The position numbers were made by a program, and so were the translations under genes. 64,000 nt of DNA. Origin: Bacteroidota bacterium (lineage in GTDB: Bacteria; Bacteroidota; Bacteroidia; UBA4408). Each line of letters begins with the position of its first letter. The stretch's first letter is position 1. The DNA is taken from contig CAUJCU010000019.1 in NCBI GenBank assembly GCA_963169745.1, positions 62,001-126,000 of the forward strand, in the 5' to 3' direction. Under the pieces are notes generated by a model. That model was not told where the DNA came from. It was given only the letters and a program-made list of their open reading frames with translations, and did no database searches. Below are positions 8,501 through 64,000 of this stretch, piece by piece.

Positions 8501-10087
8501 CATATATTTTATATAGTCAAACAATCGCTCTTGAATAATTATTTTGTCATCGTCATATTCAAAATCAACAAATCCTTGATTGTTAAATGTTAGCATCATG
8601 GGTCTTACATACTCAGGTGAAATTCCCATAAATGCAGATATTTGATTGATACTGCCTTCGCGAGTTTTGTTTTTTTCGGAGTAGTTTTTCAGTTTTATTA
8701 AGGGATTTATATCATCTAGCCCTTGAAGTTTATAATATCTTTTTTCTCTAAAAAAACTTTTTGACTCAAAAGTAGCATTGCTTTCAGCGCTTCCTTTAAT
8801 CATTTCAAATGAAATGGAAGGTTGATCCATTTTCCAGTACAAAGCCTCAAAATCCATATCAAGTTGGTGGTAAGAATCAGAAAAGGGAGCACGGGCAATA
8901 CCATGATTATCGCGAATTAATGACAATTCCTTGTCTTTAAAAATTAACTTCATGGTTAAGCCGGGGTGATAAATGGAGTCATTTTCGTTGTAAATTGATA
9001 CTTCAGCATTATCTGATGAAATTCGGTCGGTGCGTATAATATAGCTTTTGGCAGAAACCAAGACAAATAGCTTCTTATTACGATAAAACTTTAAATAAGC
9101 CGGGTTGTTTCTATCTCCTGAACCAATTATCTTAGAACCTCTAACAAAAAAGCCGCCATCATAATCTACATCTTGAAAAATATTAGGCAATTGCAAACGT
9201 TTATTATAGGAGGAAAATTCTGGATAAGAAGCTCGGTTGTCAACAGCATTGGCCAAAACTTTATCTGTTAAGCGCCCTAAAAGCGGCTCTTTAAAATAAT
9301 TCTTGTTGTAGTAATTTACAGAGTCGGCTGTGTAACTTGAGGTTTTGCAAATTATCTTGTAGTTGTTTAAATCGGCATAACTTAAGTTTTCGTCTATACC
9401 TGCCCTGCGCCAGTCCACACGCCCATTTTTACCTACCCAAACTTGCTCAATGGGATAATAAGTACCACTGGTTTTCATTATTGTGGCACTATCGGCTTTG
9501 GCATAACAACTAATATCTGTTTTTGGAAAAATAACTTTGGGAACGGAGTCGAACACAAATTTATAATTGCTGCTGCTAGCGCGCCATTCGGTAGTTGATG
9601 AGCGGTAAAAGGAGTTGTTTTTAAATAAGCCATCGCTCATAGCACAATAGGCATAAAAGCCGGTCATGGTTTTATTGCCTAGGAGCTTATCAATACCTTG
9701 CTGCCAGGCTTCAAAACTCTCTTTTGGCTGGTTGCCGTTAACAAAATTCTTTACCGAACCTAAAAAGTTAACAAAGTCGGGGTATGGTTTGGAGCGCTTT
9801 TTGAGCATAATATTGCAGGTGTTTCGAACAAATTTCTTTTGTTCCATATTTATCTTATCGGTCCAAGCAATAGAAAATTCGTCCATAAAATACCGAGCTT
9901 CTTTTTTATCCCAGGTCTCAATGAGTTGCAGCATTTCATCCAAAATAGTTACATCATTTTCGGAGAAACTTTGAATTTTAGTTTGTGCCAAAATGCTTTT
10001 TGAACAAAAGCATAATAAAATTAGTATCCCAATACCACAACTTTTAAAATCTACTTTTAAAAATTGAAAAAGATTATTTTTGACCAT
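5570..10087 (-). CDS. Large secreted protein of unknown function (1505 aa)
   Basis: I do not recognise a named family. The protein starts with a charged n-region and hydrophobic stretch ending at ILAQ (about residue 35), consistent with Sec export. Residues 36-170 look helical and include a WDKKEARYFMDEF segment. The remainder is overwhelmingly beta-strand-like, with repeated short statements such as 'GELITSSGFIYFDK' and 'GTILESNNFKLSPNFGY', as in long beta-solenoid or beta-sandwich proteins. A stretch around residues 1000-1080 (AKYDLKTNIIW..., then KAKIRTLEKAQI) is faintly reminiscent of OstA/LptA-like strand repeats, but this is weak. There is no T9SS tail and no obvious beta-barrel C-terminal Phe. 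It is transcribed alone. Periplasmic or outer-membrane inner-leaflet location is an inference. Confidence 0.75.
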   Translation of the reverse strand: MVKNNLFQFLKVDFKSCGIGILILLCFCSKSILAQTKIQSFSENDVTILDEMLQLIETWDKKEARYFMDEFSIAWTDKINMEQKKFVRNTCNIMLKKRSKPYPDFVNFLGSVKNFVNGNQPKESFEAWQQGIDKLLGNKTMTGFYAYCAMSDGLFKNNSFYRSSTTEWRASSSNYKFVFDSVPKVIFPKTDISCYAKADSATIMKTSGTYYPIEQVWVGKNGRVDWRRAGIDENLSYADLNNYKIICKTSSYTADSVNYYNKNYFKEPLLGRLTDKVLANAVDNRASYPEFSSYNKRLQLPNIFQDVDYDGGFFVRGSKIIGSGDRNNPAYLKFYRNKKLFVLVSAKSYIIRTDRISSDNAEVSIYNENDSIYHPGLTMKLIFKDKELSLIRDNHGIARAPFSDSYHQLDMDFEALYWKMDQPSISFEMIKGSAESNATFESKSFFREKRYYKLQGLDDINPLIKLKNYSEKNKTREGSINQISAFMGISPEYVRPMMLTFNNQGFVDFEYDDDKIIIQERLFDYIKYMAGKKDYDVIEFKSNLGQNQTNAKLNLLNFDLKISGVRQIFLSDSQSVNIFPLGQTITIKKNRDFNFSGIINAGRFQFFGKEFAFEYNKFKLDLVNVDSLRIKVATGGFLPNGDPEYAYVKSVIENLNGELLIDDPSNKSGRKDYPHYPILNSKKNSYVYWDKSTIQKGVYTRNKVGFSLDPFTIDSLDNFTNDALAFNGDFESGGIFPKFRETLKLQEDLSLGFKTTTPSSGYPAYGDKGTYNKNIFMSNRGLRGDGVLDYLTSTTKSKDFIFFPDSMNTTCEQFSNKATPGKTQYPQALADSAYIHWMPYKDFMTSSNKPNHPFSMYDGKSELYGQTTLSPKGMTGGGAMRFYKAELTSKFMRFSERVFDADTSDIRIASAAANDIGLQTVNFASHIDFDEKVGDFKSNGGGAFVKFPVNQYLCYMDQFKWYMEKDNLELSSNTKAAKGSQSAQNEDLDLTGAEFISLHPDQDSLRFLSPKAKYDLKTNIIWCHEVKYIYVADARLFPDSGEVVIEKKAKIRTLEKAQILANTVTKFHKMFNASIDIYGKKSFAGTADYNYIDETGSEQKVHFDRVATDGSGQTTGEGTILESNNFKLSPNFGYKGLINLKAANEYLTYNGSFRINHSCTNMAIKWIEFKGDVNPKDVYIPLDDTTVLDKKARNMTVTGFLLNNDSIHVYSSVVSHRKSIMDGELITSSGFIYFDKVSREYKVASKEKIKDLTATGNFVSLAVDKCESYAEGKIQLGSKLGQVKVSAFGNITQNLITDSVHFDLIMAIDFFFDNNIIKTMTEKFEASTSLQPVPFGRAEYERALMQYIGKKEADKLIAQVNLYGALKKIPDELEHTLFLSDVKMKWNPRTKSFTSYGPLGIGIIQKNQLNKYVKGVIEIVQKKSGDLINIYLEDDNNNWYFFTYGTGTMMAISSDEKFNSAIKELKPEKRKLEKDKNDKNSAPYQFTIGTLSKKSSFIAKMYSGD

Positions 10088-11054: not shown

Positions 11055-12548
11055 TTACTCTACGACCATTTTTCCTAAGTAACGTTGCACGCCAAACTCC
11101 ATGCTAAGTGCATACATGCCACTGCTTAATTTACCTTGCAAGTTAATGTTTTTAATGTAGGTATATGGCGAAACATACTCTTTATAAACTTCTTTACCAT
11201 TAACATCATACACATGCAACATACCGCTAATTTCTTGCACAGGAAACTCTATGCTTATATTGCCTTGGCTGGGGTTAGGGGCAATTTTTAATTGTTGATT
11301 TTTAATTGTTATTTCTTCATTGCCAATGCCAAGCGTATCACAAATACTGCCATGCTCTTGCATTAGGTTTAGATTTACGTAGGTGGGCACTGTAGAATAA
11401 TACACAGTAGGGCATTGTATTTGGTTTTGCACAAAATTACAGGCTTGGCCTGGCATATCTGGGTTGTTAATGACACAAAGCATAACTCCACTAAAGTTTT
11501 GAACATAAATTTTGCCATCGGCAGCTAAGTAATGGAATGCCCAACTTGGGTGCCAACCTGTAGCAGGATCATGAAAGGTAGTATCTAAGGTAGCAATTAA
11601 GGTTTGTGTATTCATTACATCAGGGTCTTGTATATCAAATTGCCATAGTTTTTCATAATAACTAATGTATAAAAACCGACTGTTGGGGCTAAAAGATAAG
11701 CCACCAGCAGTTAAATTGATAATATATTTATAACGCATATTGCTTAAAAGACCAGTACATCTATCAAAATCGTAAATTCTTAGCTGATAATCACTATTAA
11801 AACCTGCCATAGTTTTTCCATCAGGTGAAAAAGCACCTTGACCACCAAATTGACTTATTGGCCCGCCTATGGATTGAATTTGTTTTAACTCTATGCCAGT
11901 AGGAGTAAGTAAAAAAGTAAAAAAGTCATTCAAATAATTTCTTTTTACCAATATCCACCAATCTCTTCCATTGGCATGGCGGTTTACCATCAATGCTGCA
12001 ATATTAAAAGTATCATGAGCCACCAATTGGTTTTTAAGCATTACCAATCCTTGGCCATTATTGCCACTTGGGTCAATTAAGGAGTAATAAATATTTTGAG
12101 CATGGTTTGAGGTGGTAACAACATGGTCCATGTGTATCATGGCCATTAAGTTACTTGAACCGGGGTAAGGTAATAAAACTGCACCAGAAGATACTGGGTA
12201 ACCAATCCATGCCCAGGTGTTATAGGTACCACCAGGACTTAATCCTGAGCCATTCATAAGCGTGTCATGATTTTTATTCGCCAAAGTATAGCCATTGGTA
12301 TAAACAAAATACTCATTATTGGGTGTACGCAATCCGCTAAAGGTTCCACGAATAAAAACCTGATTCCCAGAATCCTTATAATGTGTTTCTGAATTGTTGT
12401 CAAAAATAAAATGTGTCATGCCTCTATAAGCCCAAGTAGTGTCGTTGGGCCATGAGCCCCACATCCATTCATTGTTTTTCCATTGGGAAAAAACTGCTGT
12501 TGAGTTTAAACCTAAACCCAACAGCAGTAGTATAAACTTTAATTTCAT
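11055..12548 (-). CDS. Secreted WD40/propeller-like protein with T9SS sorting domain
   Basis: Exported protein of 497 residues. The signal peptide MKLKFILLLLGLGLNSTAVF ends at FSQ. The middle reads like the blades of a beta-propeller: GAFSPDGKTMAGFNSDYQLRIYD, GLSFSPNSRFLYISYYEKLWQFD and LAADGKIYVQNF are the kind of segments found in Bacteroidota lipoproteins and T9SS proteins annotated as WD40-like. The C-terminal 75 residues are a T9SS type A tail (IAPNPSQGNISIEF, VYDVNGKEV, SSGMYALSME). Its ATG overlaps the stop of the upstream 12545-17092 gene by four bases, so the two are translationally coupled and probably work together on the cell surface. Confidence 0.85.
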   Translation of the reverse strand: MKLKFILLLLGLGLNSTAVFSQWKNNEWMWGSWPNDTTWAYRGMTHFIFDNNSETHYKDSGNQVFIRGTFSGLRTPNNEYFVYTNGYTLANKNHDTLMNGSGLSPGGTYNTWAWIGYPVSSGAVLLPYPGSSNLMAMIHMDHVVTTSNHAQNIYYSLIDPSGNNGQGLVMLKNQLVAHDTFNIAALMVNRHANGRDWWILVKRNYLNDFFTFLLTPTGIELKQIQSIGGPISQFGGQGAFSPDGKTMAGFNSDYQLRIYDFDRCTGLLSNMRYKYIINLTAGGLSFSPNSRFLYISYYEKLWQFDIQDPDVMNTQTLIATLDTTFHDPATGWHPSWAFHYLAADGKIYVQNFSGVMLCVINNPDMPGQACNFVQNQIQCPTVYYSTVPTYVNLNLMQEHGSICDTLGIGNEEITIKNQQLKIAPNPSQGNISIEFPVQEISGMLHVYDVNGKEVYKEYVSPYTYIKNINLQGKLSSGMYALSMEFGVQRYLGKMVVE

Positions 12549-15500
12549 TTAATTACAGTAATTTTTGTACGTTCAGCTCTTTCGTTATTCATCAAAAAAA
12601 CATAGTAAACACCAGCTGGAACTTGGCTTAACTCAAGTTGGGCATTTCTGCTATTGCTATTGATATTTATACTTAACATAAGCCTGCCTTCCATATCGTA
12701 AACATGAACAATTGCAGTCGATTTAAGTTCGTTAAAGCTTAAATTTAGGCTATTTTGAGCAGGTACAGGAAATGCTTTGAAATAAGTTGCTTCTGTAACA
12801 TTGTTATTTATTTTTGGTGCAAAAGACGCTAAGCTCTCGCGGGCATAGCCTTCATTACTGCAAAAGGCACTGTCTTGATACAATACAGAATCAACCAATA
12901 AGGCATACATATCTCTGGCTTGAAATACGGCTGGGCCTGCGGCTAATGGGCATAAATGCGCAATATAGGCAATCATAGCAGAATCTTCGTAACTGATATA
13001 TTCATAGTCACTATCGCGCAAAGCAAAATAAATTTTATTTACCGTTTTAAGTACTTGCTCATTGGCATTGCGTGGTTCTATCTCGCTATTTAGGTTGTTG
13101 GCAATTGACAAATTAGCTTTGTGATACCCATTTAAAGTGTAACTCAAATCTTCGTTTGCTTGCTTTAATGACTCATATTGTGCCAAAACTGTTATTTTTT
13201 GCATGAGTATAAGGCTGTCATTAGCCAAAGAGTCGGTTAATTCACTATTCAGTGCCAAGTAATTCATTTCTAAAATTGACAATAGGCTGTCATTGGCGGT
13301 AATGGCATGTGAAAACAAATTTCTTTGTGCCTCAAAAGCATTATTGTTTCTACTAATTTCGTCAATATCACGGAGCACCTGTGCATCGGGCGAATAGTAA
13401 AAATATTGAAGCGAATCATCATCATTTAAAAGAATGCTATCGTTAGTTAATATTTTCACTAAAGTGTTTTGAGCCATCCAAAGTGTTTGGGCAGGATAAC
13501 CATTGGTAGTTAAACTACGGTTGGCAATGGAGCGGTAAAAATCTTTATTTCCAATGGAAGAAGCCATTCTGCCTGCACAATTTTGAATAAGGCAAGGCGC
13601 ATTGTAAGTCATTAACCCGTTAGGGTCAAACCAATTTGGTGGAAAAATAAGTTGTGGGTCAGGGTAATTGATAGCAGGCTGGTTGGGATTAACATAATAT
13701 ATGCTGGTTTGCACATTCGAAGTTGATGCGGTATTATATGCTTTAAAGGTATTGGTTCCTAACCATCTGTTTCCTTCTGTATCATCATTTAAAGGGTCGG
13801 CAGGTTGCGGGCCGGTTACACCAGAGTTATCATAGTATAAAGCTATATCATTGCTACCAAAATTATTAGCTCTAATGGTCGCATTATTGTTTACACCCGC
13901 TACTTGTAAACCTATTCTGGAAACACCTGTGGTATTGCAATTTATCATAGCCTCATCGCTTAATTCCAACAACAAATCAATGCCCAAATTAGGGGAGCCG
14001 TTAAAACCAGGCGCCCAGTTAACAGTATTTTGCGATAGTGTATTCTTTTCGCAAGCTAAACTGCTGATTCCATTTAGTGAATACCAAGTCATAAAAGGGT
14101 TAGTAATGGTCCTTCTCACGGTATTGCAATTTACCAAGGAGCCCTTCAATGAACTTGTTTGAATACCCGCATTATAACTATTTGCAATAGTTACAATATT
14201 GTTACTAATACGTGTATTACCAAAATTTCCGCTTGTAGCGGCAGTTACATTAATACCAAAGTAGCCCATTAAAAAATTCATATTTATTTGGTTATAGGCC
14301 ACCACAATATTATTAGCAAACTCAGCATTATTTATTTCAATACCATTGAGCCAAGCATTAATACGATTAGATTGTAAATTGTAACTGCACATGATGGAGT
14401 TTTGTGCGATAATTCCATTTGCCACATTGCTCATTCTAATGTTATTGGCAACAATTGAATTTCTGAAAGTTTTAATACCATATTTACACTTTTCGAATTC
14501 ATTACCAGAATAACCCGGAATCGGTTCAACACTTAAAGTTTTAGGCGTGCCTATACTTCTGGCATATATGCCTGAACCCTCGGGTTGTAAACCAATTAAT
14601 GTGCCCGCAGGAGAAGGGTTTAAATGTGTTAAATCCTTAAACCAAGAATTTACAACTTTTACATTTGAATTAAATATATTAATTCCACAATTAATATTTT
14701 CGAAACGATTGCTAATTGTTGCAGCTCCAAAGTTAGCAAGGGCTGCTGGCACTGCCCCAATTTGCACATAATTTACATTATGTACTTTTATTCCAGCCTC
14801 AGACCATGTAGGATGGAAAAACATATTGGTGTAAGCAGGTTTAAGTTGATTAATGCATCTGAATATGTTTGAATAATCCACTCCCGATATTTGACCTCCA
14901 TTTAAGCCACCCATGAAAATTCCATATAAATTATTTTCAAAGACATTTGTATTGATATTGTAAATTGATCCGTTTTGCAAATGGACCGCATTTTCGGCAT
15001 CGGCAAGGTAACACCCATTCAAAAATAAGTTATCATTATTTGTTATTCCTTTCCACATACTATTGCATGCAGTAAGCGAGCAGTTTTTCAATTCTAGATA
15101 TCCATTATTGATAATATTTGAGCCATCAAAACAGACAAAGTTTATAGGAGAAACATTGGGCCCAGTATTACTGATTTTTAAATTAGTAATATTATCAATG
15201 ATTAATGTACCAGCTAATACAAAATTAATATCATTTGGTGCTTGATAACTAGTAATTTGAAACGTAGCAGTTGAATTGACATTGGATATCTGCGTGATAT
15301 TATTTGGGTAAAAATTTAACAGATGATCTTTTAATTGTGAACTAGTCATTCCATCCAAAATAATTACTGTGTTGCTACTATAACCACAAGAAATTGTATT
15401 TATTTCAATATCGATTGATGAGCTGCAACCATTGGAATCAAGCCCCACAACTGTATAGGTTGTATTTTGCATTAGATTGGGTGTAATGTAGGTGTCGGCA

Positions 15501-17092
15501 GTACTTACAATATTATTTGTAATATCATACCAAGTGTAGGTTAATGCTCCGCTTGCATTTAGGGTGGTATTAGCTCCTGTAATAATATTAGTATTCCCAT
15601 TAATTGTAATTGATGGGCCACCTACAGTTATGTTTACATAAGATGGATCAGAAATTTGTGTAGTTCCATCTTCCATTTGAATTGAAACAGTTAACGAAAC
15701 AGTTGTATTGGAATTTCCAATAAATGTTGGATGATAAAGATGATTATCGTCAAAAAGATTTGCTGGTGACCATTCATAAGTACCATTTGGAAAAGGACAT
15801 GTATTGCCTCCTATTTCAGTACCAGGACAAACGGTAATGTTGGGATCTCCTGCATCAGCGAAAAATTCTTTAACAACAATGTTGTCAATCAAATAATATA
15901 CAGCACCTCCAAATTGACTACATAAAGGGAAAGATGTTGAACTAGGAAATTCAATTACGGGACTCAATCTTAAATTTCCAATAAATAAATATTCTTCACC
16001 TCCATAGGTTGATTGATAAATAGTATTAAAACGACTCCAATTTAGATTTGGGTCATGATCAAATCCTTCTATACTAAGTGTTACATTTGTGGTGTTATTA
16101 TAATTATTTTGTATAAAATTTGTATCATCTGTTAAATCAAAATCAATTTTACTCCCATAATAAAGTCTTCTTGGTTTTGCTATGTCAACTTCAAAAAAGT
16201 ATTTTCTTCCCTGAATTAGTGCAGTATTCAATTTTCCTTTCAGAATTTCAGAAGAATATGTTGACGAGCCTCCATTTGCGCCATTATCACCACATAGAAG
16301 AGCAGAGTATGATTCACTGTTATTATAAAAATTACTTCCTTGCGCAGGATATCCACATGATACAGGTGTATTGATAAGATTTGGATTAAGTCCATACGTA
16401 TTGCAAATATTTTGGGGTCCTATTTGGTAACATCCACCATTAAACCAAGGACTTATATAATCTGGTGAATGTAATGGTTCGATCCAGTTACAAACATAAT
16501 TCGAAAATATATCACCCAAATCTTGGAAATTAGTAAAGTTTAAAGTTGGTGGATTAAATTCTTCAAAACTTCCATTTAATAAAAGATTATTACATTCAGT
16601 ACTTGCTGTACAATTTGAACCTAAAAAAACAGAAATATTGTTTAACTTAATTTTTAAATTAAATCCATTTTGATAAGTAATGCTGTCCGAAATTTTGGCA
16701 ATACTAATAATCAATAAAACAGTATCTTCATAACTTATTTGTGTTACGCCTTTTATTTCTTCAATGCGCTTATAATTAATATTTTGTGAAATGATATCAG
16801 CATTAAAACAAGTATTACTTACCACCCTCCAATCGCTGATGTAATTATTAAATGCATTTGAATCAAGTTCAAAATTTAGACCTAGATTGTTTGAAAAATT
16901 TATCACTTGATAATAATTTATGGTGTCAGAATAAGTAATATTGTATGTTTGATTAAAATTACCATCAGACATATCAATTACATAAGGATTACTACAACTA
17001 TTGCCTGTTTGTGCCATTAAATAATTGCTTGAAATGCCACTATAAATAATTAATAAAAGTTGTAAACATCGCCATAGCAGTTTACATAGCAC
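12545..17092 (-). CDS. Giant secreted beta-helix protein with T9SS sorting domain
   Basis: A 1515-residue predicted cell-surface protein. Order of parts: hydrophobic signal segment ending at LMAQ (about residue 28); a beta-sandwich region (about 30-420); PKD/Ig-like segments (about 425-570, with VCPGTEIGGN and TYTWYDI); a long right-handed beta-helix of Asn/Gly-rich rungs (about 600-1150); a helical stretch rich in LNDDDSL and QRNLF (about 1200-1400); and a T9SS tail (FPVPAQNSLNLSF, VYDMEGRLM, VPAGVYYVFL). No in-frame ATG precedes the signal peptide. The first usable start is a GTG at 17092 on the edge of a strong palindrome. An ATG at 17135 is out of frame by one dinucleotide repeat unit, which suggests repeat-controlled expression (see findings). 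Followed by the overlapping 11055-12548 gene. Confidence 0.8.
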   Translation of the reverse strand: MLCKLLWRCLQLLLIIYSGISSNYLMAQTGNSCSNPYVIDMSDGNFNQTYNITYSDTINYYQVINFSNNLGLNFELDSNAFNNYISDWRVVSNTCFNADIISQNINYKRIEEIKGVTQISYEDTVLLIISIAKISDSITYQNGFNLKIKLNNISVFLGSNCTASTECNNLLLNGSFEEFNPPTLNFTNFQDLGDIFSNYVCNWIEPLHSPDYISPWFNGGCYQIGPQNICNTYGLNPNLINTPVSCGYPAQGSNFYNNSESYSALLCGDNGANGGSSTYSSEILKGKLNTALIQGRKYFFEVDIAKPRRLYYGSKIDFDLTDDTNFIQNNYNNTTNVTLSIEGFDHDPNLNWSRFNTIYQSTYGGEEYLFIGNLRLSPVIEFPSSTSFPLCSQFGGAVYYLIDNIVVKEFFADAGDPNITVCPGTEIGGNTCPFPNGTYEWSPANLFDDNHLYHPTFIGNSNTTVSLTVSIQMEDGTTQISDPSYVNITVGGPSITINGNTNIITGANTTLNASGALTYTWYDITNNIVSTADTYITPNLMQNTTYTVVGLDSNGCSSSIDIEINTISCGYSSNTVIILDGMTSSQLKDHLLNFYPNNITQISNVNSTATFQITSYQAPNDINFVLAGTLIIDNITNLKISNTGPNVSPINFVCFDGSNIINNGYLELKNCSLTACNSMWKGITNNDNLFLNGCYLADAENAVHLQNGSIYNINTNVFENNLYGIFMGGLNGGQISGVDYSNIFRCINQLKPAYTNMFFHPTWSEAGIKVHNVNYVQIGAVPAALANFGAATISNRFENINCGINIFNSNVKVVNSWFKDLTHLNPSPAGTLIGLQPEGSGIYARSIGTPKTLSVEPIPGYSGNEFEKCKYGIKTFRNSIVANNIRMSNVANGIIAQNSIMCSYNLQSNRINAWLNGIEINNAEFANNIVVAYNQINMNFLMGYFGINVTAATSGNFGNTRISNNIVTIANSYNAGIQTSSLKGSLVNCNTVRRTITNPFMTWYSLNGISSLACEKNTLSQNTVNWAPGFNGSPNLGIDLLLELSDEAMINCNTTGVSRIGLQVAGVNNNATIRANNFGSNDIALYYDNSGVTGPQPADPLNDDTEGNRWLGTNTFKAYNTASTSNVQTSIYYVNPNQPAINYPDPQLIFPPNWFDPNGLMTYNAPCLIQNCAGRMASSIGNKDFYRSIANRSLTTNGYPAQTLWMAQNTLVKILTNDSILLNDDDSLQYFYYSPDAQVLRDIDEISRNNNAFEAQRNLFSHAITANDSLLSILEMNYLALNSELTDSLANDSLILMQKITVLAQYESLKQANEDLSYTLNGYHKANLSIANNLNSEIEPRNANEQVLKTVNKIYFALRDSDYEYISYEDSAMIAYIAHLCPLAAGPAVFQARDMYALLVDSVLYQDSAFCSNEGYARESLASFAPKINNNVTEATYFKAFPVPAQNSLNLSFNELKSTAIVHVYDMEGRLMLSININSNSRNAQLELSQVPAGVYYVFLMNNERAERTKITVIK

Positions 17093-27047: not shown

Positions 27048-28007
27048 GTGCAGCTATCTGTTGTTATTCCGTTATTGAACGAACAAGATTCACTAATTGA
27101 GCTTGCTGATTGGATAAAACGAGTATTGGAGCATAGCAACTACAGCTATGAAATTATTTTTATTGATGATGGAAGCACCGATAATTCATGGAAGGTAATT
27201 GCTGCATTGTGCCAACAAGACGAACGAATTAAAGGGATAAAATTTCAAAGAAACTATGGCAAAAGTGCTGCTTTGAATACTGGTTTTAATGCCGCCATAG
27301 GTGATGTGGTCATTACTATGGATGCTGATTTGCAAGACTCACCCGATGAGATTCCAGAATTATATGCTTTGATCGCCTCAGGCGAGTATGATTTAGTGAG
27401 TGGCTGGAAACAAAAAAGGCTCGATAATGCTTTAACGAAAAACTTACCTTCAAAACTTTATAACTGGGCCAATAGAAAAATATCAGGTATTCATTTACAC
27501 GATATGAACTGCGGTCTTAAAGCCTATAGGAGTGAAGTGGTAAAGCACATTGAAGTGTATGGCGAAATGCATCGTTATATTCCGGTTATTGCAAAATGGG
27601 CTGGTTATCGTAGAATTGGTGAGAAAAAAGTTAAGCATTATGAACGTAAATTTGGGACAAGTAAGTTTGGATTGGAACGTTTTGTAAACGGTTTTTTAGA
27701 TTTGCTTACCATTTCTTTTGTAAGTCGCTTTGGAAAACGACCAATGCATTTTTTTGGCTCTATTGGAATTGCGATGTTTTTTATAGGTGGCCTAGTATCT
27801 CTATGGCTCATTATTGAAAAAATTATGAAACTATACACACACGCTTATGTGCGTAATGTTACCGACCAACCTTTATATTATTTAGCCTTAACGGCTATGA
27901 TTATTGGTGCTCAATTGTTTCTTGCAGGCTTTTTAGGAGAGCTAATTATCCGTAATTCACCTCATAGAAATACCTATTTGATTGCAGAAGAAATTAATTT
28001 GCCTTAA
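27048..28007 (+). CDS. GT2 polyprenyl-phosphate glycosyltransferase (DPM1/GtrB-like)
   Basis: Transfers a sugar from a nucleotide donor to a polyprenyl-phosphate carrier at the inner membrane. The 319-residue protein starts directly with SVVIPLLNEQDSL, followed by FIDDGSTDNSW and MDADLQDSPDE, the DADLQ metal motif of the DPM1/GtrB/ArnC group. Two C-terminal transmembrane helices (about 232-255 and 272-295) are the usual membrane anchor. It begins with GTG one base after the DUF4199 stop codon and is clearly co-transcribed. The sugar is not predictable. Its 3' end overlaps the next reading frame by 26 bases. Confidence 0.92.
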   Translation: MQLSVVIPLLNEQDSLIELADWIKRVLEHSNYSYEIIFIDDGSTDNSWKVIAALCQQDERIKGIKFQRNYGKSAALNTGFNAAIGDVVITMDADLQDSPDEIPELYALIASGEYDLVSGWKQKRLDNALTKNLPSKLYNWANRKISGIHLHDMNCGLKAYRSEVVKHIEVYGEMHRYIPVIAKWAGYRRIGEKKVKHYERKFGTSKFGLERFVNGFLDLLTISFVSRFGKRPMHFFGSIGIAMFFIGGLVSLWLIIEKIMKLYTHAYVRNVTDQPLYYLALTAMIIGAQLFLAGFLGELIIRNSPHRNTYLIAEEINLP

Positions 28008-39742: not shown

Positions 39743-39820
39743 ATATCTCTTACCTATATTGAAAATTAATTGCAAAATAATGGTCATATTAAGCCCAAAT
39801 ACTTATACTTGCAATTTAAG

Positions 39821-40948
39821 ATGAATATTTTACACGTTATACCCTCATTGAAAAAAGGAGGAGCCGAACGAATTACTATAGATATTTGTAACGCCTTAAG
39901 TGCTCAAGGGCATAGGGTTATGCTAGTGAGTTTAAACGCTGAAAACGCATACGACTTCATAGACTATCATTTTGAATTCAAACAAATTACTTCTCAGGTA
40001 ATTCCTTCATTAAGCGGAAAAACCCTTGTTGATACGGAGGCCTACGAACAAATTTTAGATGATTTTAAGCCCGATGTGATACATTCTCATTTGTTTATTG
40101 CCGAAATGCTTACCCGTTACAAAACTCGAAAGGGGATTAAGTATTTCTCCCATTTGCATGATAATATGCCGCAGTTTAACGCTTTAAGCATAACAAACAT
40201 AAACAAACTAAAACTGACTAATTTTTATGAAAAGCAACTCATTATGAAGCGCTATAACTTATGTAACAATAGGTTCATAGCTATTTCAAAAGATGCTTAT
40301 AATTTCTTCTACGAAAATTTAAACGGGAAACTCCGAGAGCAAATTTTTTTACTTCATAATGCTATTGATTATGCTCGTTTTTATCGAGGAAAGAGAGTTT
40401 TTAAATACGATTTGGATAAACCCTTTCGCATGGTAAGCGTAGGTAGTCTTGTTGATAAAAAAAATCAACAATTTTTAGTCGATATTGCACTTGCTCTTAG
40501 CCCACTTCTGCCTCATCTGATAATCGATATACTCGGTGACGGGCCAAATTATAATTTGATAAGCGAAAAAATAAAGAAACATAATTTGCAGCATTGTGTA
40601 TTCTTACATGGCAATGTAAACAATGTGGAAACTTTTTTACATAATGCCCATTTATACATTCACCCAGCCACATACGAACCCTTTGGCTTGGTACTTTTGG
40701 AAGCTATGGCTGCCGGTTTGCCTTGTGTTTGCCTCGATGGACGTGGCAATAGAGATATTATTGAACCGGAAAAAAATGGATATATTTTTGAAGAGCAAAA
40801 TGCAGAACTATTTGCTCAAACCATATTTCATTTGTTAACGCACCCGCAACAACACGCAGAAATGAGTGATTATGCCTCAAAATATGCAGCAAATTTTGAT
40901 ATTCATAATTACACCAAGCGCTTAATAGCCCTTTATGAGCAAAACTAG
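39821..40948 (+). CDS. GT4-family glycosyltransferase
   Basis: Retaining GT-B glycosyltransferase of 375 residues. The start at 39821 gives the standard N-terminus MNILHVIPSLKKGGAERITI, with the GGAE acceptor loop; an upstream ATG would add 17 residues of no family similarity. The C-terminal donor domain has VSVGSLVDKKNQQFLVDIA, DILGDGPNYNLI and HPATYEPFGLVLLEAMAAGLP, which includes the EX7E motif (E-PFGLVLLE). A near-consensus -7 sequence TATACTTG lies about 15 bases upstream. It is divergent from the 38586-39716 transferase gene, and the two may act in the same glycan pathway. Confidence 0.93.
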   Translation: MNILHVIPSLKKGGAERITIDICNALSAQGHRVMLVSLNAENAYDFIDYHFEFKQITSQVIPSLSGKTLVDTEAYEQILDDFKPDVIHSHLFIAEMLTRYKTRKGIKYFSHLHDNMPQFNALSITNINKLKLTNFYEKQLIMKRYNLCNNRFIAISKDAYNFFYENLNGKLREQIFLLHNAIDYARFYRGKRVFKYDLDKPFRMVSVGSLVDKKNQQFLVDIALALSPLLPHLIIDILGDGPNYNLISEKIKKHNLQHCVFLHGNVNNVETFLHNAHLYIHPATYEPFGLVLLEAMAAGLPCVCLDGRGNRDIIEPEKNGYIFEEQNAELFAQTIFHLLTHPQQHAEMSDYASKYAANFDIHNYTKRLIALYEQN

Positions 40949-46655: not shown

Positions 46656-46662
46656 ACATTTG
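46655..46662 (+). promoter_or_regulatory. -7 promoter element of the Fic gene
   Basis: TACATTTG matches TAnnTTTG exactly, 21 bases before the ATG at 46684. The TTTG within the palindrome is 14 bases upstream, a little closer than usual for a -33 element. Confidence 0.6.
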
Positions 46663-46683
46663 CCGCATCATAGTTTTTGTGTA

Positions 46684-47790
46684 ATGGCAAAATACATTTA
46701 CGAACATAAAAATTGGACGAACTTTTTGTGGCAAGACAAAGTCATAAATGCTGTATTTGGCGAAGTAAAACTAATGCAGGGCAAAATCATTGGACAAATG
46801 AATGCTTTGGGTCTTTCTGCCAAAGAAGAAGCCACACTTACGGCTCTTACCTTAGACGTTGTAAAATCAAGCGAAATTGAAGGCGAATTGCTCAACTACG
46901 ACCAAGTGCGTTCTTCCATTGCAAGGCGTTTGGGGATTAACACCGCAGGACTTGTTCCAAGCAGTCGCCACATTGAAGGCGTGGTAGAAATGATGCTCGA
47001 TGCGACTCAACGCTACACTTTTCCTTTAAGTGAAAAACGGTTGTTTGGTTGGCATGCAGCACTTTTTCCCACAGGGCACAGCGGACCTTATGAAATAGAA
47101 GTTGGTAAATACCGTACAGGTAAAATGCAGATAGTTTCGGGTGCAATAGGCAAAGAGAAAATACACTATGAAGCAGTAAAGCCAAAGTTAGTAAAGGCCG
47201 AAATGGACAAGTTTCTGGATTGGTTCAATAATGACAATCAACTTGACCCTGTAATAAAAGCCGCTATTGCTCACTTTTGGTTTATTATTATTCACCCATT
47301 TGATGACGGAAACGGACGAATTGGACGGGCTATAACCGATATGTTGCTTGCCCGTGCCGAAAGTAGTGGCGAACGTTTTTACAGTATGTCAAGCCAAATT
47401 TTGGTAGAACGCAAACGCTACTACGAAGTATTACAAAAAGTGCAACACAGCACAGGCGACATTACAGAATGGCTTGAATGGTTTTTACATTGTCTGAAAA
47501 AAGCAATGCTTGCCACCGAAAACACTACGCAACGCATTTTACGCAAAGCCGAATTTTGGAAACTGTACGAAAACACAACAATCAATGAACGCCAACGCAT
47601 CATTCTGAATATGTTGTTTGACGGATTTGACGGAAAACTACAATCATCAAAATTGGCAAAAATTACCAAAGTTTCAACAGACACGGCATTGCGTGACATA
47701 AAGGACTTAATAGAGAAAGGCATCTTACAAGAAACAGGAGAAGGCGGTCGAAATACTAATTATGAACTTGCGGACTTTACACTCAACTAA
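46684..47790 (+). CDS. Class II Fic-domain protein (DUF4172-Fic-HTH)
   Basis: Predicted AMP- or nucleotide-transferring Fic protein of 368 residues. The N-terminal DUF4172-like domain holds the inhibitory helix motif SSEIEGE (62-68), matching [S/T]xxxE[G/N], which classes it as a class II Fic protein held off by its own Glu. The catalytic loop HPFDDGNGR (204-212) is complete, so the enzyme should be competent. A C-terminal winged-helix-like region (KLAKITKVSTDTALRDIKDLIEKG) follows. The start at 46684 is set by the -7 box. Base composition looks richer in G+C than the neighbours. Flanked by A and A/B repeats, with no partner toxin or antitoxin gene. Confidence 0.93.
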   Translation: MAKYIYEHKNWTNFLWQDKVINAVFGEVKLMQGKIIGQMNALGLSAKEEATLTALTLDVVKSSEIEGELLNYDQVRSSIARRLGINTAGLVPSSRHIEGVVEMMLDATQRYTFPLSEKRLFGWHAALFPTGHSGPYEIEVGKYRTGKMQIVSGAIGKEKIHYEAVKPKLVKAEMDKFLDWFNNDNQLDPVIKAAIAHFWFIIIHPFDDGNGRIGRAITDMLLARAESSGERFYSMSSQILVERKRYYEVLQKVQHSTGDITEWLEWFLHCLKKAMLATENTTQRILRKAEFWKLYENTTINERQRIILNMLFDGFDGKLQSSKLAKITKVSTDTALRDIKDLIEKGILQETGEGGRNTNYELADFTLN

Positions 47791-58038: not shown

Positions 58039-58074
58039 AAAGCGGGCAGAAGTACACCACTGCCCGCTTTTTTT
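58039..58074 (+). terminator. Rho-independent terminator of the giant adhesin gene
   Basis: AAAGCGGGCAG and CTGCCCGCTTT form a perfect 11-bp stem with a 10-base loop, followed by a run of T, starting 22 bases after the stop codon. Confidence 0.9.
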
Positions 58075-58223: not shown

Positions 58224-60152
58224 ATGAGATATTTCAACAAATGGCTTATTGAATTCATAGTTTTTCTTGCTTTTTTTATTTCTTCTTGTAATTCTAATCA
58301 GCAGCCATCAAAGCCTGAAAAACCATCGGTAAAGCCTTTACAAGAATATGCTATATTATTTCATGAAAATCTTGATTTTGAAAATTTGAATACAGTTGAT
58401 AAAGCTCCTCCAATTGCTAATTCAAATTCAAAGTTTTTTTATGTAAAACCGGATGTAGAGTTTATTAATGGCTTCAGTAAACCATTAGGCGAAATAAAAA
58501 ATTTTAAAAATATTGATAGTATTAAAATATCCTTCTCATTATTTACTCAAGAAAAATTGCAAAACCTTAAATTGGTTTGGGTTATTGAAGGTCCAGAAAA
58601 CAAAACAGAGCAGTGGTCGGGAAGTTTGTTGGAATCAAAACAATTAAAAGATTGGGACTCTTTTTATTTTACTTTTCCATTTGATGTGAAGTGGCGTAAA
58701 TCAAAAAATACATTAAAAATCTATATTTGGAATGAAGGAAAAAATGAATTTTGGTTAGATAATTTTTCTTATACTTTATTGGGCTTAAAACCCTTAAGTA
58801 CAGTTATAGATACATCTGTAGGTAATTTATTTTATGATTTTGAAACACCAAAAGATTTAATCAATATTGACTGTATCAAAAAAGGAAAAGCATATTCTGG
58901 AATGAGGTGCTGCGATTTAAGTGGAGGTGAGGAATACGGGGTAATGATTAAGCGGAAATTTGGTGATTTGGGATTTCCCATAATTAAAAAAGTAGCTGCC
59001 TCGGTTTGGTTGTACCCCTTGCAGGAAGGTTATGATCTTATGATTACCATAACAATTAAAAGTGCAAAGACAGGTAAAAACATAGATTGGTTTGGGAAAA
59101 GCACCAATAATAATTTTGCTTTAAAAACCTGGACACATTTTAATATAGATGTGAATTTACCTATTGATAAAATAGAACCGGAAGATGAAATAGAAATTGG
59201 AATATGGAATAGAGGAAAGAAAGGTATTTTGGTTGACGATTTTCAAATTGTTTTTGGAACTGATCCTGAGCCTCGAAGTATTGGTGTTTCAGCAAGTAAT
59301 TATTTAACTTTTGAGCCTTTATGGCTTAAAAAGGAAACTATTGATGTAGAGGTATTAAACACATACAAACCCTTTGATGCAGTACTTGGGGGATTATTCT
59401 ATAAAAACAAGGAGAATTTAGAATCCATTTTACATATTTCAGATAAAAATGCCCGCTTGATAAGCTATAATAAATCGTTAAATGCTTTTGTTTCAGTTTG
59501 GGAAACTTCTGATCAATCTCATTTTTTATTAGATACAGCTTATCGCTTTTTAGCTACAGATTTTGACCACAATGGCATAACAGAAATATTGGCTATACAT
59601 AAAATGAACGGAACTTGTCAATTTTATATTTTTAATAACAACCACTGGGAGTTAAAAGAAAAATTACAGTCATTTTTTCCGGCCGATTGGTTAAAACAGT
59701 TTGTTTATATCAGTCCTTTAAAATCGCTTGCTGCCGGTTTTGCTCTCTTTTTACCTGAAAAATCAGAGTTGTTACAATATAAAAACAACTTATGGGTAAA
59801 AAGCAAATTAGATAACACCAACCGCTTTATTCATGCCAAAGACATACTGATGGATTGGAATCAAGGATACGCTTTAAAGTGGAACAATGAATGGCGTTTT
59901 GAACTTCGTCAGATAAAGCTGAATCCTCTTGAAAATACGCTGCAACCAATTGAATTTAAAGGGTTTTTAGGGCAAGCTAACCCCAAATATTATGAATTTA
60001 CAAAAATGCTAAGTGGCTTCTTTGTTCAAAATAAAAATAGAAGTCTAATCGTATTTTCATATAATTGTGCGGATAGTGAATATTTGGGAGATAATTGTAA
60101 TCAGATTGAAAATAATTCTCAGATGCCTAACGCAATTAGCCTTTATCAATAA
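58224..60152 (+). CDS. Lipoprotein with two copies of a beta-rich 'IWN' module
   Basis: A 642-residue lipoprotein (lipobox ISSC, Cys22). Two copies of one beta-sandwich-like module follow: the first (about 45-190) opens NLDFENLN and closes IYIWNEGKNEFWLDNFSYTL; the second (about 200-350) opens FYDFETPKDL and closes IGIWNRGKKGILVDDFQIVF. Both have the core IWN-x-GK and an (L/V)D(N/D)F ending. The remainder (about 370-642) is propeller-like, with DFDHNGITEIL resembling an FG-GAP/VCBS calcium loop. I do not know a named family for the module. It leads a run with the GH16-like gene (15 bases downstream) and a membrane protein. Surface or periplasmic glycan binding is only a suggestion. Confidence 0.75.
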   Translation: MRYFNKWLIEFIVFLAFFISSCNSNQQPSKPEKPSVKPLQEYAILFHENLDFENLNTVDKAPPIANSNSKFFYVKPDVEFINGFSKPLGEIKNFKNIDSIKISFSLFTQEKLQNLKLVWVIEGPENKTEQWSGSLLESKQLKDWDSFYFTFPFDVKWRKSKNTLKIYIWNEGKNEFWLDNFSYTLLGLKPLSTVIDTSVGNLFYDFETPKDLINIDCIKKGKAYSGMRCCDLSGGEEYGVMIKRKFGDLGFPIIKKVAASVWLYPLQEGYDLMITITIKSAKTGKNIDWFGKSTNNNFALKTWTHFNIDVNLPIDKIEPEDEIEIGIWNRGKKGILVDDFQIVFGTDPEPRSIGVSASNYLTFEPLWLKKETIDVEVLNTYKPFDAVLGGLFYKNKENLESILHISDKNARLISYNKSLNAFVSVWETSDQSHFLLDTAYRFLATDFDHNGITEILAIHKMNGTCQFYIFNNNHWELKEKLQSFFPADWLKQFVYISPLKSLAAGFALFLPEKSELLQYKNNLWVKSKLDNTNRFIHAKDILMDWNQGYALKWNNEWRFELRQIKLNPLENTLQPIEFKGFLGQANPKYYEFTKMLSGFFVQNKNRSLIVFSYNCADSEYLGDNCNQIENNSQMPNAISLYQ

Positions 60153-60167
60153 ATTATAGGTATAAAA

Positions 60168-62105
60168 ATGAAGTCTCTAAAAAAGATATTTGTTTATAGT
60201 GTTCTCTCTTTACCCATTTTTATTGTGTTATTTACCTCGTGCCAACCGGGAAATAAAAATAAAACCGGACAAAATAAAGCATTTGAGATACATTCGTTTT
60301 CTGCAATAACTAATTATTTACCTCAGCAGCAGGGAGTAAAATCGATTTACTTAGATTATACGGATGCCCTTGATGGTTTTGTGATACCTTCGCTAACCCA
60401 GGTTGATGGTGGTAATTTTGCCTTTTCTTTTAAACTTCAAAATAATACCAACACCAATCAAGAACTGTACTATAAAATATTTTATCAAAACGAAAGCTAT
60501 AAGTTTCAGGAGTATGACAGTATAACAAGGAGCCAACACCCGCTTGCTGCCGAGAACTTTTATGGAAGTTGGAATGATACAGAAATAACGTTTAAAAAAA
60601 TTACATTACCGGCATCAACAAAAGAACTTCAAATAAACGATGTTTTTAATATTGTTGGAAATCCAAGAAACGAAAGTAAGTATTTTGATAATGATAAAAA
60701 CTGTAGATGGAAAAGAAACCCGAGAGTGGGTAAATACTCTTTTTTACTTGTTGTATGCACTAAAAATGATTGGGAGCATTTACCGTTAGCGGTTAAAAAT
60801 ATTTCGCTCAAGCAAGACAGTACCTTTGTAAACCCATTTTATTATTTTAAGCACACGAAGCCGGGTATAAATACCGAAACTCATTGTGTAGTGGACTCAT
60901 TAGGCCTTATGGTAATTGCTAAGCCCAATTTAGGAACAGGTATTTATGTTAATGCAAGTTCGTTTAATGGAGCTAGTTATGACAAATCTTACTTTTGTAA
61001 TACCTGCGGAGATGATTCCAATTTATTTCGTAATGCACCACTACAGCAATTTATTAATTATGTAGATGCTTCTACAAAGTTTAATAACATTCCGGTATTG
61101 GCAGACATATTAAAAGACAATTACTCGCTTACAGAATATAATTGGAACAAAAGTTTTACTGCTCAAGAGGAGCTTGTGCCAACATTAATTCAAACAACCA
61201 AAAAGCCATGCCAAACCGTATTTTCTGACCCTCAAAATTCAAAAGTAATTATCAAGAATCCAGCAACCAAGTATGGTGAGTGGAAAAAAGAGAGTGTTGG
61301 GGTTATAACCCGTCATGGGCTAACTTATGGCAAATATCGTGTTAAAGTAAAACTTACGGAGTTGTTGAATAAAGAAGGGGTATGGAATGGATTGACCAAT
61401 GCTATTTGGCTTATTACACAAGGGGGCGGAGAGTGGAATTACCGTAGAATATGCCATAGCAATAAGCCCTACATGTCCACTTATTGGGGAGGTGTGCATG
61501 ATAAGAGAGTGCCGGCTGTTGATTATTCGGAAATAGATTTTGAGATTATAAAAACGCCACCTTATTGTCCTGACAATATATTTTCTCCGGTGTATAAGGT
61601 TTCATCAGCTAATAATAAGAATGTAAACAATTGGAACACAACTATGCCTTTTGAGATAAAAGAAAGCAAAGGGAAACTTACTGTAGCATGTACAAACTGG
61701 GATATGGCTTGTATGGAGCCTGAAAATTTTACTACCGGTTGCAACAGCATTTCTTATGGTGGGCAATCCTTTTATACTTTTAGGTGGGATTCTGCTTATC
61801 GGGCTCTTACCGAGCGAAGTGAAGAATTTGATGACAAGCTTTTTGGTGGGCCGTGGTATTATTTTGAAATAGACTGGCGTCCTAAAGAAATAATATGGCG
61901 TATTGGAGACTCACCTCAAAACATGCGGATAGTGGGTTATATGAATGATAAAGTAACTAATGTGCCCAATAATCAAATGCTCTTAATTATTACACAAGAG
62001 TATCATAATACGGTTTGGTGGCCGGGAGCTCCATTTGCACAAAATAATTTACCTTTCCCTTTAAACGACATTCCTGGCGAGATATATGAAATTCAAATTG
62101 AGTAA
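60168..62105 (+). CDS. Lipoprotein with GH16-type catalytic motif
   Basis: A 645-residue lipoprotein (lipobox FTSC, about residue 25). Residues about 40-230 form a beta-rich N-terminal part of its own (NLDYTD-like opening, then KYSFLLVVCTKNDWE); residues about 380-645 show a GH16-type fold. The catalytic signature is E455-I-D457-F-E459 in the segment YSEIDFEI, preceded by GLTYGKYRVKVKLTE and AIWLITQGGGEWNYR, and followed by WYYFEIDWRPKEIIWRIGD. GH16 enzymes cleave beta-glucans, agarans and related polysaccharides, or transglycosylate them. Position 15 bases after the module lipoprotein and 48 bases before the membrane protein gene suggests one operon. The substrate is unknown; the glycan could be self-made. 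Confidence 0.85.
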   Translation: MKSLKKIFVYSVLSLPIFIVLFTSCQPGNKNKTGQNKAFEIHSFSAITNYLPQQQGVKSIYLDYTDALDGFVIPSLTQVDGGNFAFSFKLQNNTNTNQELYYKIFYQNESYKFQEYDSITRSQHPLAAENFYGSWNDTEITFKKITLPASTKELQINDVFNIVGNPRNESKYFDNDKNCRWKRNPRVGKYSFLLVVCTKNDWEHLPLAVKNISLKQDSTFVNPFYYFKHTKPGINTETHCVVDSLGLMVIAKPNLGTGIYVNASSFNGASYDKSYFCNTCGDDSNLFRNAPLQQFINYVDASTKFNNIPVLADILKDNYSLTEYNWNKSFTAQEELVPTLIQTTKKPCQTVFSDPQNSKVIIKNPATKYGEWKKESVGVITRHGLTYGKYRVKVKLTELLNKEGVWNGLTNAIWLITQGGGEWNYRRICHSNKPYMSTYWGGVHDKRVPAVDYSEIDFEIIKTPPYCPDNIFSPVYKVSSANNKNVNNWNTTMPFEIKESKGKLTVACTNWDMACMEPENFTTGCNSISYGGQSFYTFRWDSAYRALTERSEEFDDKLFGGPWYYFEIDWRPKEIIWRIGDSPQNMRIVGYMNDKVTNVPNNQMLLIITQEYHNTVWWPGAPFAQNNLPFPLNDIPGEIYEIQIE

Positions 62106-62153
62106 GAATTAAATTTAGAGCTCAAGTAATTTCATTATTCGTATTATTGTAGT

Positions 62154-64000
62154 ATGTTTAAAAATTGGAACCTTCAAGATGTTGTTGAATCCCAGTATAG
62201 TTATGTTGATATTGTCATAGCTGTACTTACGGCTTTATTGTTGCTGCCTTACTTGTTTGTAGCACAATACAATGTTCCTTCTGTTGACGATTATTCTTAT
62301 GCCCTTAAAGCTCTTGATTTTGGGTATTGGGGAGGACAAGCAGAAGCCTATAAACAATGGAACGGACGCTATTTTGCAAGTTTTATTTTATGTTTAAATA
62401 TCATATCAGGAAAAGGATTGTTTTTTTACAAACTTTTGCCGGTGGTGCTTATTTTTATGAGTATTCATGCTATTTATAAAATCTTATCGGAGTTTAGCCA
62501 TGATATATCTAAATTAAGTTTGACGGTACTGAGTACTTTTATCGTACTCACTTACCTCAATTTTATGCCAAGTATTGCACAGGGCATTTATTGGGAGCCC
62601 GGAGCCATAACCTACCATTTGGGAAACATTGTGTTTACCTATTTTTTAGGAAATTTGATTCAATGCTTTACCAAGAGTAACGCGCTAAGTTTAAAATTAA
62701 AACTTATACCGCTAACGATACTTGCCTGTGGATTAAATGAGAGTATAATGATTGCAGTTGTTTTAGTTACAGCTACAGCTTTGTTAATGGCTTATAAATA
62801 CCATAAACCATTACAGTTATACATTACTAGTTTATTGATTTTAGCTATACTGTGTACAGTTATTATGGCTGTTGCTCCAGGAAATCATATTCGGGACATA
62901 GGCTTTTTAGATCCTCAAAAAAAGAATTTTACATATACTATAACCGCTTCATTTTCTACACTATTTAGCTATCTAAAACAATGGTTGCTTACTCCGAGTA
63001 TGCTGCTTTTTAGTTTGTCAACAGCAGTCATTTTTGTGAAAATTCAAGCTCCCAATCAAATTAAAGATAACCGTAGCTTTATAAAATTTCTGATTGTCTT
63101 TGTTGCTGGTTTTTGTATAGTGGCAGCTACTTTGGCTCCCGGATTTTGGAGTACAGGATATATTGCTCCTGATAGAACAATCAATTCTGTGTATTGGGTT
63201 TTTTTATTATGGTGGTTTGTTTCTATGTATTTCTTTTCTGTGCTTATGGTGGGCTACATTCAAAATGTATATATAAGTCAGCATCTTACTTTAGGCCTGT
63301 TGCTTGCTATTTGTGCGTTCTATTATGGGCAATCCTACAATTACAATAGGGCAATAGGCGATATTGTAACCGGACGGGCCTATATTTACCATACCGAGTT
63401 TAAAAACCGCCTTCATCTGATTGAAGATTCCAAAAAAAATTCAATTTGTGAACTCCCGGAGTATTCTGTTATACCCGGAACCATATTTTTTGAAGATTTA
63501 AAATTTGATTCGGAAGATTGGTTTAATAAAGAGTTTGCACGTTTCTATGGCTTACAGGCGGTGCAACTGGTAAAACAAAAGACTTCTGATATGAGTTCGA
63601 TTTGTGTTAACTTTGATGAAAAAGAAACTAAAGGCTTACGTATGCCTGTTAATTTGAGTTCTGATTTTTCTGTTTCAGCACCAAACAGCAATTTTATACA
63701 AGGTGATAACAATTATGGAGCAACCTACGAAACTTCAATTGGACAAATAGACCCTAGCGGTTTAAAGCTCAAACGTATAATTATGACTACTAAATTGTTA
63801 AGTGTATTGCCCGAAGTGAACTGCGTTATGGTTGTTTCTATTGATGATGCTCAAGGTAAAAATGTGATGTGGTTGGGCAAGGATATAGTAAACCCCAACA
63901 CATTGGTAAATCAATGGGGTGACTTTGTTTTTGAATGTACGATAAACGAAAGTATGGCATTAAAGCCTGATAATAAACTATCTGTTTATATTTGGAACAG
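62154..64000 (+). CDS. Polytopic membrane protein with C-terminal 'IWN' module (partial)
   Basis: Open to the window edge, at least 615 residues. It begins with a short cytoplasmic stretch, then about 10 transmembrane segments to residue about 400 (LTALLLLPYLFVAQYN ... PSVDDYSYALKAL in the first loop, YWEPGAITYHLGNI later). The acidic VDDY loop and this layout resemble DUF6056-type, GT-C-like membrane proteins. From residue about 495 the C-terminus repeats the module seen in the 58224-60152 lipoprotein: CVNFDEKETKGLRM, then KLSVYIWN at the window end. No stop codon was seen, so the gene continues beyond the window. It follows the GH16-like gene by 48 bases. A function in glycan assembly or export is an inference. 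Confidence 0.8.
   Translation, partial: MFKNWNLQDVVESQYSYVDIVIAVLTALLLLPYLFVAQYNVPSVDDYSYALKALDFGYWGGQAEAYKQWNGRYFASFILCLNIISGKGLFFYKLLPVVLIFMSIHAIYKILSEFSHDISKLSLTVLSTFIVLTYLNFMPSIAQGIYWEPGAITYHLGNIVFTYFLGNLIQCFTKSNALSLKLKLIPLTILACGLNESIMIAVVLVTATALLMAYKYHKPLQLYITSLLILAILCTVIMAVAPGNHIRDIGFLDPQKKNFTYTITASFSTLFSYLKQWLLTPSMLLFSLSTAVIFVKIQAPNQIKDNRSFIKFLIVFVAGFCIVAATLAPGFWSTGYIAPDRTINSVYWVFLLWWFVSMYFFSVLMVGYIQNVYISQHLTLGLLLAICAFYYGQSYNYNRAIGDIVTGRAYIYHTEFKNRLHLIEDSKKNSICELPEYSVIPGTIFFEDLKFDSEDWFNKEFARFYGLQAVQLVKQKTSDMSSICVNFDEKETKGLRMPVNLSSDFSVSAPNSNFIQGDNNYGATYETSIGQIDPSGLKLKRIIMTTKLLSVLPEVNCVMVVSIDDAQGKNVMWLGKDIVNPNTLVNQWGDFVFECTINESMALKPDNKLSVYIWN

Follow-up and report, generated by a model that had tools for sequence, protein, structure and literature searches.

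Why should a lipoprotein and a polytopic membrane protein, encoded on either side of a GH16-like enzyme, carry the same beta-rich module? The question is raised by three genes, here called A, B and C, at the end of a 64,000-nucleotide stretch (the window) of contig CAUJCU010000019.1 from a Bacteroidota bacterium (GCA_963169745.1). The contig measures 162,802 bases, in a genome of 2.99 Mb. The shared module is a remote relative of family 22 carbohydrate-binding modules (CBM22), and A and B belong to a pair of genes kept together across many Bacteroidota loci. We put at about even the chance that A, B and C make up a small periplasmic glycan-processing set.

The genes and their shared modules are the following:
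58224..60152, + strand: gene A, lipoprotein of 642 residues with two CBM22-like modules and an FG-GAP-like C-terminal part (open reading frame, module comparison, pairing with B)
58344..58793, + strand: module 1 of A, residues 41-190 (pairwise local scores, profile)
58821..59267, + strand: module 2 of A, residues 200-348, the best module match of this genome (pairwise local scores, profile)
60168..62105, + strand: gene B, lipoprotein of 645 residues, divergent GH16 enzyme (family alignment, Pfam profile)
62154..64000, + strand: gene C, polytopic membrane protein of 631 residues, cut by the window end and complete as L002:8155-10050
63606..64000, + strand: C-terminal CBM22-like module of C, residues 485-630, truncated by the end of the window (pairwise scores, profile)

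The shared module

The modules are about 150 residues long. Pairwise local alignment scores are 67 for the two modules of A, 88 for A module 1 with C and 109 for A module 2 with C; shuffled sequences average about 30 with a standard deviation of about 5, and none of 1000 shuffles scored as high as the real pairs. By these comparisons the three modules are homologous, and profiles indicate a single family, which bears out the preliminary description of two modules in A and one closing C. On the full contig, C is complete at 631 residues (ending ...KLSVYIWNRGKGLIYSDDLCLRFE), and its module closes with IWNxGK and a DD strand. By profile search, 166 of the 295 genomes of the class contain the module. 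It occurs in small lipoprotein-like proteins, at the N-terminus of A proteins in one or two copies, and at the extreme C-terminus of polytopic proteins. A further module lies elsewhere in the same genome (G000:C9:14958-15332).

The module had been thought undescribed, and no Pfam family covers it; a wholly new module is nevertheless rejected, given its profile kinship to CBM22. The best match of a 26-copy module profile among PDB chain sequences is 4xup, the CBM22 pair of Paenibacillus barcinonensis Xyn10C (E 9.8e-6). With 87 copies, the top three matches are all CBM22 (4xup, E 1.2e-10; 4xun, 4.5e-5; 4xuo, 6e-4), followed by an SGNH esterase (0.06) and S-layer endoglucanase modules (about 0.2). 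The best 4xup stretch spans profile positions 8-149 of 151. Among solved structures the Xyn10C modules are thus nearest by profile across the entire module, and they stand in tandem as in A; the similarity is remote, however, and the host proteins here are not xylanases. The general carbohydrate-binding model of Pfam, PF02018, matches 1 of 26 single modules at E 0.1 and 2 of 24 A proteins (best 6e-4), and because it mostly fails to match, the module is named CBM22-like rather than CBM22. We take it to be a new branch near CBM4/9/16/22, remotely related to CBM22. Domains of the CBM4/9/16/22 type often hold structural calcium at their ends, and the acidic opening strand and DD closing strand of the module presumably resemble those ends.

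A conserved A-B pair

Conservation of the pair was followed in 79 named loci on genome contigs, almost without exception of uncultured Bacteroidota, drawn from the best 80 of 265 B relatives; the loci were thus chosen by B and are not phylogenetically independent. The sequence before B is long enough in 73 loci, and in 71 of these a module protein is encoded on the same strand no more than 2.5 kb upstream. A same-strand gene stands immediately before B in 72 loci; in 68 of them it encodes a module protein, mostly with a gap of -3 to +13 nucleotides. By BLAST clustering, the upstream module proteins form one family in 72 loci. Gene order in these Bacteroidota loci thus identifies the A-B pair as a conserved unit. 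The preliminary description had expected all three genes to stay together; this stands for A-B, kept widely, but the A-B-C trio is rejected as a conserved unit, being confined to close relatives. In distant B relatives found through genomes, A is often absent, and B lies beside MBOAT/AlgX or other genes instead.

A proteins share an architecture of one or two modules, FG-GAP-like repeats and a conserved end:
59274..60149, + strand: C-terminal part of A, FG-GAP-like stretch and WRFDLK...NPKYYE-type end (family alignment)
The FG-GAP_3 model matches 9 of 24 A relatives (best 2.2e-5), the A protein of the window not being among them. Single A or B proteins gave no match in Pfam, NCBIfam and PDB sequence searches, and alignments were needed. 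Measured against Pfam, NCBIfam, PDB sequences and the open-access papers searched, the A family, its pairing with B, the CBM22-like branch and the sharing of that branch with membrane enzymes encoded nearby are new.

Two further kinds of protein are encoded next to A on its upstream side. In one lineage (loci L133-L138, L174, L175, L179, L183, L186-L188 and L190), a single-module protein of 173-189 residues, often lipoprotein-like, resembles a split-off third module copy. In about 20 Bacteroidales loci (e.g., L210:1756-6177, L222 and L211), a protein of about 1473 residues with FlgD_ig and a weak type IX secretion system (T9SS) sorting domain directly precedes A, itself often preceded by an AlgX-like gene.

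Genes for glycan synthesis and acetylation are frequent neighbors. Among the 79 loci, MBOAT genes are found in 24, AlgX-like genes in 30 and either in 41, GT2 genes in 28 and PMT_2-type genes in 14. Counting also module-bearing genes that resemble glycosyltransferases of the GT-C fold, 64 loci have at least one of these kinds. As a rough yardstick only, the four MBOAT genes in the 3-Mb genome of the window correspond to a chance rate of about 2% per 16 kb.

Predicted location of A and B

Both A and B of the window begin with lipobox-type signals (FISSC and LFTSC). In rule-of-thumb counts, a lipobox is present in 85 of 105 B proteins, of which only 3 have two or more acidic residues at +2 to +6, the region that is acidic in the surface-export signal of Bacteroidetes lipoproteins (PMC5080379). 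Because B lipoboxes mostly lack that signal, B is predicted to lie in the periplasm rather than on the surface. Similar counts find an N-terminal hydrophobic segment in 108 of 115 A proteins and a lipobox in only 5. The description of A as a lipoprotein therefore suits the window's own protein but not its family. The counts suggest that most A proteins are anchored in a membrane by the hydrophobic segment, with the A of the window as an exception. About half of the A proteins have an AxA-like site near this segment, and cleavage of some is possible. Overall, the N-termini point to a periplasmic location for both A and B.

Gene B is a divergent GH16-like enzyme

The features of B are:
61146..62102, + strand: GH16-like domain, residues 327-645 (PF00722, domains of relatives)
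61530..61544, + strand: predicted catalytic motif EIDFE of the ExDxE type, residues 455-459 (E, D and E invariant in the family alignment)

The GH16 motif noted earlier is part of YSEIDFE at residues 453-459. Thirteen B relatives align over their full length and share many invariant residues, including E455, D457 and E459, and the motif Y(S/T)E(I/V)D(F/I)E is found in 99 of 101 B relatives. GH16 motifs take the form ExDxE or ExDxxE (PMC6827312), and that of B is the former. The Pfam GH16 model matches 6 of 13 full-length B proteins (best 1.6e-6); one full-length relative lies just above the PF00722 cut-off (23.3 versus 22 bits). With the C-terminal domains of B relatives, PF00722 matches 17 of 21 at E of 0.1 or less (best 1.7e-7), and the B of the window scores E 0.011, below the Pfam cut-off. 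No PDB sequence match falls below E 0.9; because no solved GH16 is close, B is assigned to a divergent branch. By family profile and motif, B is a GH16-like enzyme with a predicted endo-glycosidase or transglycosidase activity.

Some B proteins carry an insertion of about 60 residues (model positions ~170-240; e.g., G047:C38:213247-213711). Other proteins, about 430-1000 residues long, repeatedly show weak matches to this stretch, and some of them are encoded close to B.

Gene C and the module-bearing membrane proteins

The features of the membrane part of C are:
62217..63575, + strand: DUF6056 (PF19528), residues 22-474 (E 2e-18, over cut-off)
62286..62291, + strand: Asp-Asp pair at residues 45-46 that follows the first hydrophobic segment, a candidate for the GT-C catalytic acid, also present in the orthologue in genome G002

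A simple hydropathy count gives C seven hydrophobic segments, with VDD at residues 44-46. These features agree with the GT-C pattern of 7-13 transmembrane helices and an acidic residue after the first. DUF6056 proteins over cut-off in the class sample are mostly 440-550 residues long, and DUF6056 is named in no open-access paper searched. The idea that DUF6056 always carries the module is rejected, as the G002 orthologue is its sole carrier in the DUF6056 loci examined. Membrane proteins that end in the module fall into at least five groups unrelated by BLAST. In hhalign comparisons of DUF6056 with module-bearing or PMT_2-linked groups, probabilities are uneven, ranging from 2 to 91%, and an MBOAT control stays below 1.5%. 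The earlier impression of a transferase-like protein thus gains a family and an uneven, indirect profile link, and C is probably, short of proof, a GT-C-type glycosyltransferase. Its CBM22-like domain lies at the extreme C-terminus, presumably on the periplasmic side of the membrane.

In a careful tree, the module of C falls inside the clade of A-family modules with support of 99/89 and 100/94, with the bootstrap not fully settled. In a quick tree, seven GT-C modules form a second set that groups with the first modules of A at lower support. The sample behind these trees is biased, with many loci chosen by B. They suggest, rather than demonstrate, that the module has been exchanged between A proteins and membrane enzymes, and they lend some support to the earlier proposal that A and C handle the same ligand.

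A second module-bearing GT-C-like protein is encoded in the same genome (L167:6695-8668; G000:C2, ~56.7-58.7 kb), with PMT_2 over cut-off. Separately, a weak module match (E 4e-6) lies at the C-terminus of the membrane protein L211:9925-12366, whose relative in L222 contains a sulfatase domain (PF00884).

Proposed function and alternatives

In the proposed glycan-processing set, C would be a polyprenyl-phosphate-sugar-dependent glycosyltransferase of GT-C type whose CBM22-like domain keeps the acceptor glycan in place at the periplasmic face. A, tethered to a membrane by lipid (most relatives apparently use an N-terminal hydrophobic segment as anchor instead), would bind the same glycan as C and use its one or two module copies to bring it to B. 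As a periplasm-facing GH16 endo-glycanase or transglycosylase lipoprotein, B would then trim or transfer the chain while it is made or modified. A broader proposal, to which we give a little under an even chance, is that the A-B pair is an undescribed, Bacteroidota-wide periplasmic system with its own CBM22-like family, passed between A and membrane glycosyltransferases encoded nearby, with one chain recognized in both synthesis and trimming. Uncharted pathways make many surface and matrix polysaccharides of Bacteroidota. A holder-and-cutter pair marked by one domain, which also sits on several GT-C-like kinds, would provide a sequence handle on such pathways, along with a testable rule that enzymes with the module may act on the same chain; a probable function would then follow for DUF6056.

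Parts of this arrangement have counterparts in known systems. ExoK of Sinorhizobium meliloti belongs to GH16, and for ExoK and ExsH we know of no CBM-bearing partner like A and no GT-C protein with the same module. Both are glycanases that cut the cell's own exopolysaccharide (PMC4916376), the kind of action proposed for B. The periplasmic polysaccharide-degrading enzyme AlgL works with the alginate synthesis machine (PMC5099689, excerpt); here, too, a degrading enzyme may accompany synthesis, and MBOAT and AlgX-type acetylation genes also flank many A-B pairs. AlgL, however, is an alginate lyase and not a GH16 enzyme, and no alginate synthase was identified at the locus. For C, one likeness is EmbC, a polytopic GT-C protein whose extracytoplasmic C-terminal carbohydrate-binding sandwich recognizes and binds the acceptor (PMC3044687), as C may do. 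EmbC differs in its membrane family (DUF6056 in C) and in a CBM structurally nearer CBM6/36, and the available excerpt of that paper describes no neighboring lipoprotein with the same module. A GT-C core of 11 transmembrane helices and a C-terminal beta-rich CBM are also combined in the GT136 protein ORF12 of Citrobacter youngae O1, which adds sugars to a periplasmic glycan (PMC11127046). ORF12 belongs to a pentofuranose three-component system, and the excerpt at hand describes no GH16 or A-type partner.

Several results weigh against the proposed set. Module-bearing GT-C-like genes lie near B in 18 of 79 loci, a minority, and among the loci examined the fusion of DUF6056 with the module is confined to the genus of the window. 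A common origin of C's module and most other GT-C modules, not favored by the tree, is not rejected by the approximately unbiased test (p 0.35), which leaves an alternative to a ligand shared by A and C. Of ten module-bearing membrane proteins, four pass the PMT_2 cut-off of Pfam, three fall below it and three have no match, and direct hhalign comparison of DUF6056 with the PMT_2-positive group gives 0.3%, so that the link between DUF6056 and PMT is indirect. The preliminary description had looked to the sequence beyond 64 kb for polysaccharide synthesis or export genes; none was recognized there from translations (no family scan), and the open reading frames read as accC/accB, fabH, plsX and other housekeeping genes.

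CBM22 and GH16 are families characteristic of enzymes that degrade polysaccharides, and the gene upstream of A encodes a T9SS-type secreted protein, both of which would suit a surface system in which A and B bind and digest foreign polysaccharides as food and C is an unrelated neighbor. We consider this quite improbable, given that no SusC/SusD-like gene was seen among the flanking genes scanned (a selection), that the lipoprotein N-termini lack the acidic surface-export signal (PMC5080379), that synthesis and acetylation genes often adjoin A-B, and that the membrane protein C bears the same module. The module could also be a structural or protein-docking beta-sandwich that unites A, B and the membrane enzymes and binds no sugar. 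One Trp and one Asp alone are near-invariant over the 87 copies, and the module occurs both on its own, as a small protein, and attached to widely differing membrane proteins, as docking would allow; its best structural relatives by profile are nonetheless carbohydrate-binding modules and its partners are glycan enzymes, which makes this reading unlikely.

Subfamily GH16_20 holds transglycosylases, which bears on a variant of the proposed set in which B mainly attaches the finished chain to an acceptor presented by A. B has the ExDxE form of the motif, and the xyloglucan-active GH16_20 belongs to the GH16 branch with this form (PMC6827312). That branch also holds hydrolases, however, and sequence cannot separate the two in B; the variant is given a low probability.

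Locus layout and other features of the window

The spacing noted in the preliminary description, 15 bases between A and B and 48 between B and C, agrees with the open reading frame coordinates, and its reading of one transcript is plausible. The gene 5' of A encodes a protein of 2303 residues with Ig_7, PKD and T9SS sorting domains, and the gene 3' of C, on the opposite strand, reads as accC in translation. Between the T9SS-type gene and A lies a candidate terminator:
58039..58070, + strand: terminator-like hairpin with an 11-bp stem and U-rich tail (fold -18.5 kcal/mol, z -3.06)
A consensus terminator scan misses this hairpin, as its 10-nucleotide loop exceeds the limit of the scan. Because the hairpin and U run part the T9SS-type gene from A, and the accC-like gene is on the other strand, A, B and C could form a single transcript of their own without other genes. 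No convincing Bacteroidetes-type promoter was seen by eye.

Elsewhere in the window, distant from the operon, a GT2 glycosyltransferase is encoded at 27048-28004 (+) and a GT4 glycosyltransferase at 39770-40945 (+). A protein of 1505 residues at 5573-10087 (-) has no Pfam match at E 1e-4. Two adjoining T9SS-sorted proteins of 497 and 1515 residues are encoded at 11058-17092 (-), and a Fic-domain protein with DUF4172 at 46660-47787 (+).

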